Source: Geothrix terrae (GTDB lineage Bacteria; Acidobacteriota; Holophagae; Holophagales; Holophagaceae). Taken from it: a stretch of 64,000 nt of DNA. The notes below the pieces were generated by a model. The model was not told where the DNA came from. It did not search any database and worked only from the letters and a program-made list of their open reading frames with translations. This document shows positions 9,584 to 24,526 of this stretch, in pieces (the stretch's first letter is position 1; every line of letters begins with the position of its first letter). The translations under genes were made by a program, and so were the position numbers. The stretch lies in NCBI RefSeq assembly GCF_022808775.1, contig NZ_JAKZLA010000008.1, positions 1 to 64,000 on the forward strand, given 5' to 3'.

Positions 9584-10198
9584 TCAGCGGTGCCGGCGGT
9601 CCCCCACCACCACGGCGGGCACCCCCGCGACGATGGCCCACTCGGGCACGTCCTTCGTGACCACGGCCCCCATGGCCACCACGGCGTGGTCGCCGATGCG
9701 CACGCCGTCGGTGACGCCGGCGTTGGCGCCGATCCAGACATCGCGGCCGATGTGGATGCCGCGGGAGCGCACGGGCTGGTCCTTGAGGTCGCGGTCCGGC
9801 TTCATCCCGTGATCGAAGGCGTAGAGGGCCGCCCCGCTGGCGATGCGCGTGCCGTCGCCGAGGGTGATGCCCTTGCGCCCACCGTCGAGACGGGCGCCGG
9901 CGTTCACGCTCACGTCGCGACCCAGGGTGAGGGGCCCGTGCAGGAAGGCCTGGGCGGCGATGGCGCAGCGGTCGCCCAGCACCACGCCCCGGCCGGGTTC
10001 GCCGAAGATGGCGGCGTCCGGCGCGATGAAGCAGCCCGAGCCGAGGGTCACGGTCTCCTGGGCCACGAGGCGCGCCTGCACCTCCGCCTGCCAGGCCTCG
10101 GCCCAGGCGCGGTGGCGGGGTTTCAGGGCGAAGTAGAGCCAGGGCATCCAGGCCAGCCGGCGCTGGTGCTGCTCCCGCAGGGTCTCGAGGTCGCGCAT
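9584..10198 (-). CDS. Left-handed beta-helix (hexapeptide) acyltransferase
   Basis: The 204-residue protein has an N-terminal helical segment of about 50 residues, then repeated hexapeptide turns such as [51 protein letters not shown] and [19 protein letters not shown]. It ends in the typical [11 protein letters not shown] of the maltose/galactoside O-acetyltransferase and WcaF group. An AFDHG loop carries the probable catalytic His. It likely moves an acetyl group from acetyl-CoA to a sugar or glycan. The acceptor is unknown. The structured repeat element 10209-10483 begins 11 bp upstream of its start. Confidence 0.85.
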
Positions 10199-10208
10199 GG
10201 GAGAAGTT

Positions 10209-10483
10209 TAGGGCCTGTTTTCAAAGTGGGACGCCGCCGCGACGGTGTCCAGCCGCGCTCATGGCAAGGCGCCGGCCGAAGGGCGATGCGGGACATCGCT
10301 CGAGGTTGGCAACGCAGCCAGGGGCGCGGCTGGCCATCGTCCCGGAGGGCAAGGGGCGGCGCCCGGCGCGATGCTGCGTCAAGCTCCTCGCCGATAGGAG
10401 CCGCTATCGCCTTCGTCGCTTTCCTGGCCTCGCTTGGGCGGCGCCCCTTGCGCGGCCACGCCCCCCTTTGAAAACAGGCCCTA
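10209..10483 (+). repeat. Structured palindromic element, copy 1
   Basis: The outer ends are a perfect 18-bp inverted repeat (10209-10226 and 10466-10483), with TA as the terminal dinucleotide at each end. Inside are a second pair (CCAGCCGCGC and GCGCGGCTGG), a third GC-rich pair around GCAAGGGGCGGCGCCC, and a small GATAG/CTATC hairpin. The loop sequences AGGGCGATGCGGGACATCG (10280-10298) and GCGATGCTGCGTCAAGCTC (10368-10386) recur in copy 2 at 23583-23852, whereas the stems differ in sequence. It fills the divergent gap between the acyltransferase and MarC genes and ends 16 bp before the MarC start codon. Confidence 0.8.
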
Positions 10484-10499: not shown

Positions 10500-11186
10500 A
10501 TGCCCCACCTCGGCCCCCTGCCCACCTTATCCTTCGCCCTCGGCGTGGCGACCTCGCTGTTCTCGGTGCTGAATCCCATCAGCGCGGCGGCCATCTTCGC
10601 CAGCGCCACCGCGGGCATGGAGGCGCCGGCCCTGCGCCGCAGCGCGAAGAAGGCGGCGCTGACGGCGGGCGCGGCCATGCTGGCCTTCGCCCTGGTGGGC
10701 CAGTTCATGTTCAGCCTCTTCGGCTTCACGGCGCTGGCCATGCGCTTCGTGGGCGGCGTGCTGGTGCTCTACCGCGCCATCGCCATGCTCTACGGCGAGG
10801 ATCCCCGCGAGCGCACCACCGAGGACGAGAAGGCCGAGGCCAGCCGCAAGCTGCCGGAAGACTTCGCCATCATCCCCTTCGGCATCCCGCTGGTGGCGGG
10901 CCCGGGCACGCTGTCGACGGTGATGGGCATGATCGCGGGCATCAGCTGGCTGGAGTACGGCGTGGTGCTGCTGGCCATCTTCCTGAACACCTGGATCGTC
11001 TACCTCTTCCTGCGCAAGGCGCCGGCCGTCTTCGCCCGCCTGGGCGCCATCGGCACCAAGGTGGTGAACAAGCTCATGGGCCTCATCCTCGCCGCCGTGG
11101 CCATGCAGTTCCTCATCAACGGCGTGAAGGCCCTCTACGTCGAGATGCGCGAGACGCCGCCGGCGGCCGTGGTGGCGACGAAGTAA
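10500..11186 (+). CDS. MarC family integral membrane protein
   Basis: The 228-residue protein has about six membrane segments. Family marks are SVLNPISAAAIF in the first helix, IPFGIPLVAGPGTLSTVM in the centre, and NKLMGLILAAVAMQFLINGV at the end, as in MarC/YchE/YhgN proteins. The transport role of the family is undefined; despite the name, antibiotic resistance is not established. Its stop codon directly abuts the stop of the convergent glutathione peroxidase gene. The structured element ending at 10483 lies in sense orientation immediately upstream. Confidence 0.9.
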   Translation: MPHLGPLPTLSFALGVATSLFSVLNPISAAAIFASATAGMEAPALRRSAKKAALTAGAAMLAFALVGQFMFSLFGFTALAMRFVGGVLVLYRAIAMLYGEDPRERTTEDEKAEASRKLPEDFAIIPFGIPLVAGPGTLSTVMGMIAGISWLEYGVVLLAIFLNTWIVYLFLRKAPAVFARLGAIGTKVVNKLMGLILAAVAMQFLINGVKALYVEMRETPPAAVVATK

Positions 11187-22193: not shown

Positions 22194-23591
22194 CTATCGG
22201 GTGGCTCCGGCTGGGAACGCCACCGTGACGACCAGGCCGGGACCCGTGGTGGGATCCGACAGGCGGACCTCGGCGCCCAGGGCGCGGGCCACTTCCTGGA
22301 CGATGGAGAGCCCCAGGCCGCACCCGGGCGTGTCGTAGCTGCCGAGCCGGCAGAACCGCTCAAACACCCGGGCGCGGTCGGCGGGGGGGATGCCGGGCCC
22401 GTTGTCCTCGATGGACAGGACCGGACGCCCCTCGACCCGGCGGAGCGAAAGCGTGACCCGCCCGCCCGGGGGCGTGTAGCGGAGGGCGTTGTCCACGAGG
22501 TTGGCCACCAGCTCGTGGAGCATGGTGGACGAGGCGGGCAGGTCCACGCGGTCCTCGGGGCGGTCGAAGCCCAGATCGATGCGGCGGGCCTGGGCCAGGG
22601 TCGCCTGCTCCTCGAGCACCCGCTGGGCCAGCTCCGTCAGGTCCACCACCTCGCCGGGCCGGCGGGTCTGGGCCCCGGCCTCGGCCCGGGACAGGGCGAG
22701 CAGCTGGTTCACGAGGCGCGTCCCCTGGCGGACGCCTTCGGACATGGCCCCGAGGGTTTCGTCCTTGACGGCCGGATCCGGGCTGCGGAGGCCGTAGTTG
22801 GCCTGGGTCTGGAGCACGGCGAAGGGGGTGCGGAGCTGGTGCGAGGCGTTGGCGATGAAGCGGCTGCGGACCGCCATCTGAGCGTCCAGGCGCTGGATGT
22901 AGCCGTTGAGGGATTCCACCAGGGGCCGGAGCTCCTGGGGCATGGGTCCGGCTTGGATGGGTTCCAGCGAGCCCGGCTTGCGCCGTCCCACCTCATCCCG
23001 GAGGCGGAGGATGTCCTTCAGGCCCCGGCGCAGGGCGAACCAGATCAGGAGGCCGGCGAGGGCCAGCGTCCACAGGTCCTGCCGCAGGGTGGTGGTCCAG
23101 AGCTTGCGGGCCAGCTGGTTGTGGTCCTGGAGGGTCTGGGCCACTTCGATGATCACCGGGCCCTCGGCGGGGGCCGCGAAGACGGGCTGGGCGTAGGCCA
23201 CCACCCGTACGGGCTCGCCCCGGACTTCCGTCTGGAAGTACACCGATTCCTCGGGTCGGGGCGCCTCCGCTGGGGGGGGCAGCTCCGCGTAGCCCGAGAG
23301 GAGCACCCCCTTGGGCGAGGCGATGCGGTAGTACACCCGGTCCTGGGCCCTGGACTGGAACAGCTCCAGGGCCGCCGGGGGGATGGCCACGTCCAGGAGG
23401 CCATCCTCGAACTGGATCTGCTGGGCGATGATGCGGGCCGATCCGAGCAGCAGGCGGTCCTGCACCATGTCGGCCGTGTGCCGGGCCTCCCGCCGGGCCA
23501 GGGTGAGGTTCGTGAGGGCGAGGACGCCCAGGGGCACCAGCAGCCACAGCAGCAGGCGGGCCCGGAGGCTGAGGGCGGACTCAGAGGTCAT
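22194..23591 (-). CDS. TctE/QseC-like sensor histidine kinase
   Basis: The 465-residue protein has two membrane segments (about 13-30 and 172-190) flanking a periplasmic sensor of the 2CSK_N type. Then come the H-box NASHQLRTPFAVLQ, N-box VANLVDNALRYTPPGG, SIEDNGPGIPP and PGCGLGLSIVQEV. It should phosphorylate the response regulator encoded just upstream (23852-24526). The two genes are split by a 270-bp structured element whose terminal repeat contains this gene's start codon. A GGGG run inside the element may serve as ribosome-binding site. Confidence 0.9.
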   Translation of the reverse strand: MTSESALSLRARLLLWLLVPLGVLALTNLTLARREARHTADMVQDRLLLGSARIIAQQIQFEDGLLDVAIPPAALELFQSRAQDRVYYRIASPKGVLLSGYAELPPPAEAPRPEESVYFQTEVRGEPVRVVAYAQPVFAAPAEGPVIIEVAQTLQDHNQLARKLWTTTLRQDLWTLALAGLLIWFALRRGLKDILRLRDEVGRRKPGSLEPIQAGPMPQELRPLVESLNGYIQRLDAQMAVRSRFIANASHQLRTPFAVLQTQANYGLRSPDPAVKDETLGAMSEGVRQGTRLVNQLLALSRAEAGAQTRRPGEVVDLTELAQRVLEEQATLAQARRIDLGFDRPEDRVDLPASSTMLHELVANLVDNALRYTPPGGRVTLSLRRVEGRPVLSIEDNGPGIPPADRARVFERFCRLGSYDTPGCGLGLSIVQEVARALGAEVRLSDPTTGPGLVVTVAFPAGATR

Positions 23592-23852
23592 ATCAACACC
23601 CCACGAGGCCGCGCGAGGGCCGCCGGGCGAGCGAGGCGAGGAAGGCGAGGAGACGCGTAGCAGGCACTACGCGCGACGAGCGTGACGAAGCATCGCGACG
23701 CCCGCCGGCCCTCGCCCGGAGGGATGAAGCCAGGCTGGCGCCCCTCGGTGTCAGGGCCCTTGAACGATGTCCCGCATCGCCCTGCGGGCCCTTCCTTGCG
23801 GTGCATCCAGCCTGGCTTCATCGCGGCCTCGTCGGGTGTTGATATGACCTCT
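23583..23852 (-). repeat. Structured palindromic element, copy 2
   Basis: It is bounded by a perfect 19-bp inverted repeat (23583-23601 and 23834-23852), extending to about 31 bp with one mismatch. On the minus strand it carries AGGGCGATGCGGGACATCG (23783-23765), identical to copy 1, and GCGATGCTTCGTCACGCTC (23696-23678), 17 of 19 as in copy 1. Further stems are GATGAAGCCAGGCTGG with CCAGCCTGGCTTCATC, GCGAGGGCCGGCGG with its partner, and GCGTAG/CTACGC. It lies between response-regulator and kinase genes in the sense orientation. One terminal arm includes the kinase ATG and the other touches the regulator stop codon. Confidence 0.8.
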
Positions 23853-24526
23853 TAGGCCTCATGGCGTGGCTTCAGGAGGTAGCCGAGGCCCCGGAGTGTG
23901 GCGATCACCACGTCGCCGTCCTCGAGCTTCTTCCGGAGGCGGTGGACGTAGATCTCGATGGCCTCGGGGCTCACGTCCTGGTCGAGTGAGTAGAGGCTCT
24001 CGGCCAGGGCCTTCTTGCTCACCGTCCGGCCGGCCTTCATCATCAGCCCCTCCAGCACGGCGTGCTCTCGGGGTGTCAGGGCCAGGGGCGCGCCCGACAG
24101 GGTGAATTCGCGGCGGTTGCTGTCGTAGACCAGGGAGCCGCAGGCGAACACCGGGTTCTTCTGCTGGTTGACGCGCCGGAGCAGGGCCCGGATGCGGGCT
24201 TCCAGCTCATGCACCTCGAAGGGCTTGACCATGTAGTCGTCGGCCCCGAAATCCAGGCCCTCCACCCGGTCGCGGGTGGCGTCGAAGGCGGTGAGGATCA
24301 GCACCGGCACGGCATTGCGCCGACTCCGGAGGCGCTTGAGAACCTCCCGGCCATCCAGCCCCGGGAGGGCCAGGTCCAGGATCACCAGATCGTAGGCCTC
24401 CGTGCGGAGGAGACCGTCGGCCTCCAGGCCGTCCTGGGCGCACTCCACCGTGTACTTGTCCGCCCTCAGGGTCCGGGCCAGCCACTCGGAGAGGGCGCGG
24501 TTGTCCTCGACCAGCAGGAGTTTCAT
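23852..24526 (-). CDS. TctD/QseB-like response regulator
   Basis: The 224-residue OmpR-family regulator has a receiver domain (LLVEDNRALSEWL, Asp in VILDLALPGLDG, Thr in LILTAFD, Lys in MVKPFEVHE) and a winged-helix DNA-binding domain (LTPREHAVLEGLMMKAGR, PEAIEIYVHRLRKKLE, TLRGLGYLLKP). It lies 22 bases downstream of a periplasmic binding-protein gene and upstream of its cognate kinase, in the order of tctC-tctD-tctE systems that switch on carboxylate uptake. Likely targets are the divergent porin and transporter genes. Confidence 0.9.
   Translation of the reverse strand: MKLLLVEDNRALSEWLARTLRADKYTVECAQDGLEADGLLRTEAYDLVILDLALPGLDGREVLKRLRSRRNAVPVLILTAFDATRDRVEGLDFGADDYMVKPFEVHELEARIRALLRRVNQQKNPVFACGSLVYDSNRREFTLSGAPLALTPREHAVLEGLMMKAGRTVSKKALAESLYSLDQDVSPEAIEIYVHRLRKKLEDGDVVIATLRGLGYLLKPRHEA

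Follow-up and report, generated by a model that had tools for sequence, protein, structure and literature searches.

The window analysed here, a 64,000-nucleotide stretch of a 3.43-Mb genome from the Geothrix-containing group (Holophagaceae, Acidobacteriota), carries two copies of a strongly folded repeat that contains no gene and that we regard as a new, structured variant of MITE with a phylum-wide distribution. In the usual account, a bacterial MITE derives from one insertion sequence (IS) and is short-lived. Here one structured core is combined with ends that belong to no fewer than two transposase families in 14 families of a phylum, a testable case of a non-coding element whose fold, rather than its ends, persists. 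No description of this element family was found in the openly available literature, and an earlier description is possible.

Copy A has a body of 271 bp (10211–10481) with a TA dinucleotide, read directly, on both sides, and occupies a gap bounded by divergent ORFs at 9584–10198 (−) and 10500–11186 (+). Copy B, likewise read directly, lies on the opposite strand, between genes that we take from their ORFs to be response-regulator-like and kinase-like. The first-pass annotation had reported a structured element with a second copy sharing certain loop blocks. The two copies do share these blocks, and both fold: the z-score is -6.2 for copy A, treated as single-stranded DNA, and -11.3 for copy B, treated as RNA, with 0/200 shuffles as good in either case. 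The fold is a three-way junction composed of an outer stem P1 formed by the terminal repeats (20–30 bp), a hairpin P2 (~103 nt, with the conserved blocks GGCAAGG, AGGGCGATGCGGGACATCG and AACGCAGCC in copy A), a short linker hairpin (9 nt) and a hairpin P3 (~104 nt). P3 proved to be P2 in inverted and diverged form: the P2 model matches its minus strand in the window and at many other loci, and in several other lineages the two are 71–75% identical as inverted copies. The layout is therefore TIR-H-H'-TIR' (TIR, terminal inverted repeat), with overall dyad symmetry and a core in which one ~100-nt hairpin occurs twice, the copies inverted relative to each other (Table 1). One-hairpin forms of 167–174 bp, in which a domain is missing, also exist, as do short copies consisting solely of terminal repeats. 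Ortholog alignments revealed an optional 66-bp extension of the linker hairpin in other copies, and those of its matches that were checked all lay inside these elements.

Table 1. Features of the two element copies in the window.
Feature	Position	Strand	Evidence
Left TA target-site duplication, copy A	10209–10210	.	Single TA at empty orthologous sites
P1 left arm, left terminal inverted repeat GGGCCTGTTTTCAAAGTGGG	10211–10230	+	First 17 bases equal IS5-family left end
P2 hairpin domain, copy A	10240–10342	+	Covariance model R1 match, 99 bits
Short linker hairpin CCCGGAGGG, P2/P3 junction	10341–10349	+	Consensus folds, ortholog alignments
P3 hairpin domain, copy A	10349–10452	-	Minus-strand match to P2 model, E 2.5e-4
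P1 right arm, right terminal inverted repeat	10462–10481	+	Complement of left arm
Right TA target-site duplication, copy A	10482–10483	.	Flank comparison, empty sites
Copy B, type-B ends (GAGGTCATATCAACACCC), core as in copy A	23584–23851	-	
P2 hairpin domain, copy B	23722–23823	-	Covariance model match, 92 bits
TNA target (TAA), stop codon of putative response-regulator-like gene upstream	23852–23854	-	ORF 23852–24526 (-) ends there
TNA target (TGA), other side of copy B	23581–23583	-	

In its own genome the element is dispersed, with at least 13 core-bearing copies besides the short ones (BLAST and pattern searches), and 51 of 77 Holophagaceae genomes carry it. The copies fall into two end classes, type A (GGGYCTGTTTTCAAAGTGG, with YTA and TAR flanks) and type B (GAGTGCCTAACAAAACCCC and many variants such as GAGGTCG.., GAGCTCC.. 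and GAGCGTG.., with CTNA and TNAG flanks). Near-perfect terminal inverted repeats bound ~120 copies from Holophagaceae and, in other lineages, 27 of 40 copies. An exact TNA duplication borders 14 of 49 type-B copies, against 6.7 expected with shuffled flank pairs. Of 56 type-A copies, 37 are bordered by TA at both ends, a count for which shuffling is uninformative given how common TA is there, so that the argument is borne by the empty site. The joined flanks of copy A match contiguous empty sites with a single TA in many sister genomes (AAGTCTAGCGG in L267, against AAGTTTA/GGG..CCC/TAGCGG in the window, slashes marking the element borders), and the site is filled in its own genome and in two close relatives.

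Insertion sequences with matching ends were found as well. An 861-bp IS5-family element of a sister genome (NF033580, 268 bits, above cut-off, with two reading frames joined by hand) has TA flanks and an end equal to the type-A end over its first 17 bases. In the sister genome G034 (L220) there are about ten copies of an IS5-family insertion sequence, most of them near-identical; they are likely to be live and to supply type-A elements with transposase. The end GGAGCCTGTCCAAGTAA is common to a 1474-bp IS1182-family element (NF033551, 382 bits, above cut-off) and to elements of two other Holophagaceae genera; a full-length IS with type-B ends was not found in the family Holophagaceae. Another insertion sequence, of 824 bp with ends GGGCCTGTTAACACTA and TA flanks, was seen in L252 and L263 (two relatives). 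None of the insertion sequences was found to contain the core hairpins, and neither the DUF4096 nor the DDE_Tnp_1 transposase model found a match in the genome of the window, which makes present local mobility doubtful. The first-pass annotation had contrasted the element with a transposon, which it expected to keep its terminal repeats; that contrast falls, given the terminal inverted repeats, the TA or TNA target-site duplications, the filled and empty sites, and the ends in common with an autonomous element, all of them marks of a MITE. Judging from these genome comparisons, on which mobility, site choice and the matching IS rest, the element very probably belongs to the MITE class and is non-autonomous.

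We also searched with a covariance model describing the P2 hairpin (12 input sequences, threshold E <= 0.001), the kind of search that the annotation had proposed. It matched 60 of 396 sampled Acidobacteriota genomes, 32 of them Holophagaceae and 28 from 13 other families, with up to 83 matches in a single genome. Forty loci, all outside the genus Geothrix, were read closely; the 27 with clear ends are mostly 265–281 bp long and have TA or TNA flanks. Their ends represent about a dozen unrelated sequences under one core, with three end types in the genome G066 alone, and the end types match at least two transposase families (IS5 and IS1182), in keeping with the earlier view that this is not an ordinary MITE with constant ends. 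A copy whose stems are wholly different and whose loop block is unchanged was also detected in one alphaproteobacterial MAG contig, directly after gyrB in what we take from its ORFs to be a dnaN-recF-gyrB arrangement; mis-binning of this contig is possible. Searches for plasmid, phage and viral-contig relatives found none.

Many copies sit at the end of a gene. With a simple GC3 rule for gene calling, 38 of 61 type-A copies had the stop codon of a neighbouring gene at their edge, against 48 of the 128 CTAG sites in noncoding DNA (p 0.002); for type B the counts were 27 of 40 copies against 49 of the 201 CTNAG sites in noncoding DNA (p 3e-7). Outside the genus the figures were 11 of 27 against 8 of 384 control sites. 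Within the window, copy B is at a stop codon and copy A is not. Such siting is best explained by site preference together with the survival of harmless insertions: target sites are often stops in GC-rich genomes and insertion rebuilds the stop, so that surviving copies would accumulate there. At the other side of copy B (positions 23581–23591), the ATG of the downstream kinase-like ORF (23589–23591, −) falls within the terminal repeat of the element; the insertion may have supplied this start codon, and a start further in is also possible.

The first-pass annotation had also held that the stems differ between copies and yet remain paired, and the compensating change proved real, with double changes at 45 of 69 predicted pairs in the Holophagaceae alignment and at 37 of 37 pairs of the hairpin across the phylum. 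The covariation statistics that it had called for gave, for the phylum hairpin, a score of 0.736 against 0.174 for shuffled and 0.07–0.10 for slid partners, in an alignment fitted to the model; in the same model-fitted alignment 89% of cells pair, against 32–41% in slid controls. Comparing 20 lineages less than 80% identical, the outer P2 arms are 60% identical (57% for shuffled arms) and the P2 core 72% (59% shuffled), while the arms of one P2 form 21.3 Watson-Crick pairs of 27, against 15.5 for arms taken from different lineages. Between lineages, then, the outer stem arms differ like shuffled DNA yet stay complementary, and the letters of loops and bulges are kept. The picture of fixed loops and variable stems is true in this sense between families; within one family many unpaired columns vary too.

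After insertion, the element evolves more slowly than its surroundings: at nine orthologous sites paired columns are 3.0% divergent, unpaired columns 6.0% and flanks 7.9–8.6%. Purifying selection, correction of one arm by the other or gene conversion among copies could each produce this. Changed pairs of the type-A terminal repeats are double in 48% of cases among close paralogs and in 14% among orthologs, the ortholog pairs not being independent; for type B the values are 31% and 25%, a small contrast, and for internal stems 13–18% in all comparisons.

Covariation by itself is no proof of functional RNA, and the stem replacements described here form a natural series for telling DNA-level from RNA-level selection. 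When only pairs with a Watson-Crick majority and a prediction on both strands are counted, there are 72 G-U and 70 A-C exceptions; the terminal repeats have 20 and 35. The two kinds of intermediate are as rare as each other, a finding that speaks against selection on RNA alone. Unrestricted pairs of the Holophagaceae P2 give 161 G-U against 40 A-C from copies that are not independent, and 22:14 when each lineage is counted once (p 0.24). An early excess of G-U over A-C, considered as proof of RNA, was rejected as an artefact of pairs chosen by an RNA folder and of a few fixed positions, and it vanishes after the restriction to Watson-Crick-majority pairs on both strands. Of the earlier suggestion of a selected RNA or cruciform DNA structure, the maintained fold, the fixed loops and the covarying stems stand; the counts are no proof of RNA as the selected molecule, and we lean to pairing at the DNA level.

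In the mechanism that we propose, IS5- and IS1182-family transposases encoded elsewhere would act in trans on the terminal repeats of an element built as terminal inverted repeat, hairpin H, inverted H copy and terminal inverted repeat, and insertion at YTA/R or CTNA/G sites would duplicate TA or TNA. The twin-hairpin core would be the lasting part, its ends being exchanged as resident transposases change, an exchange that we infer because one core is found under many end types. Most likely, although we advance it tentatively, the stems are held to complementarity rather than to sequence through cloverleaf folding of the element when single-stranded; the cloverleaf would rebuild a double-stranded terminal repeat, one arm templating the other. 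The hairpins may act in transposition; since ends-only copies exist, H is not strictly needed. We consider doubtful the bolder idea that the inverted hairpin pair is itself a durable selfish entity living off transposases. In this view it would survive over phylum-scale time by refitting both ends at once to the resident IS5- or IS1182-type transposase, one arm being copied from the other via hairpin folding.

A plausible but less probable alternative for the core is a role at the RNA level in 3' UTRs, where the transcript following a stop codon would fold and stabilise or destabilise the upstream mRNA, mobility only spreading the element, as proposed for ERIC, NEMIS and bcr3. The siting of copies at stop codons agrees with it, as does the slow change of paired columns after insertion. 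In 18 of 20 lineages it is the + strand that folds better, and several of the fixed pairs are G-U, both of which fit RNA. The stop-codon gene lies at the right edge only in 39 cases and at the left edge only in 16 (p 0.003), a bias that has been counted in its favour; however, with the gene on that side the transcript would usually be the minus strand and not the better-folding one. The equality of G-U and A-C exceptions, their ratio in the terminal repeats and the presence of all four Watson-Crick pair types with few wobbles at most outer-stem pairs also speak against it.

An unlikely explanation is that of a neutral MITE, in which complementarity would come from mutation, template switching between the arms correcting quasi-palindromes, and not from selection. 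Equal G-U and A-C intermediates, and double changes in excess even among orthologs, fit this. So do the opposite orientations found at 3 orthologous sites in different species with both flanks aligned (two more have one flank aligned), which could reflect in-place inversion or re-insertion. Template switching leaves the conserved loops unexplained, however, and the loop and bulge letters of the core, together with its near-constant length, were kept over 14 families while the stems were randomised. Finally, a free-standing small RNA gene family or riboswitch with no transposon link, with which strong covariation and the Rfam result are compatible, is very improbable given the target duplications, IS-matching ends and mixed orientations of surrounding genes, and is already contradicted by the empty sites. 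The annotation had recognised no known riboswitch or REP family; Rfam gave no match to the element at gathering threshold and only a chance-level miRNA match (E 0.4), and a supposed likeness to the twister-sister ribozyme found no support in that search.

Several MITE-like structured repeats are known from bacteria (PMC2229807, PMC2267715, PMC3446304, PMC3733652). ERIC (RU-1) of enterobacteria is likewise non-coding, palindromic and intergenic, with terminal TA, target duplication and folding transcripts, but it is a single long stem-loop of 127 bp (PMC2229807), whereas the present element is a GC-rich, ~270-bp three-way junction with twin inverted hairpins, many end types and a phylum-wide range. 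The pneumococcal RUP resembles it in ends that match a resident IS, in TA targets and in proposed trans-mobilisation, and differs in having one IS (IS630-Spn1), one end type and no conserved structured core reported in PMC2229807. YPAL (RU-2), a structured palindromic mobile repeat also with filled and empty sites, has target duplications of 3–26 bp and no terminal TA (PMC2229807). The MITE-like bcr1–bcr3 repeats of Bacillus cereus are also often found in UTRs, and bcr3 correlates with mRNA decay, but they belong to one species group and no end switching is reported for them in PMC3446304. Paired inverted hairpins recall REPINs and REP dimers; REPs, however, are 20–40 bp long and tagged by GTAG or CGTC, the GTAG ones being linked to tyrosine transposases (PMC3116915, PMC3733652), whereas our hairpins are ~100-nt units without such a tag, enclosed by DDE-type terminal repeats.

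Some further variation was seen among individual copies. Orthologous copies differ by the 66-bp linker extension and by a 42-bp palindromic module (GATATCAGTTTGTCTCGCGTATCGCCGAAGGCGATACCGAGA), which is a separate repeat dispersed in the Geothrix-group genomes searched (L133, L129, L139 and many others) and which also occupies a constant position within the hairpin core in both end classes, as a repeat within a repeat. Sites with copies in opposite orientation include L093 versus L146, L024/L160 versus L138, and L027 versus L139. In some type-B copies (L074, L139) the inner part of P3 is swapped for a longer, different structured domain, the outer P3 stem being kept.
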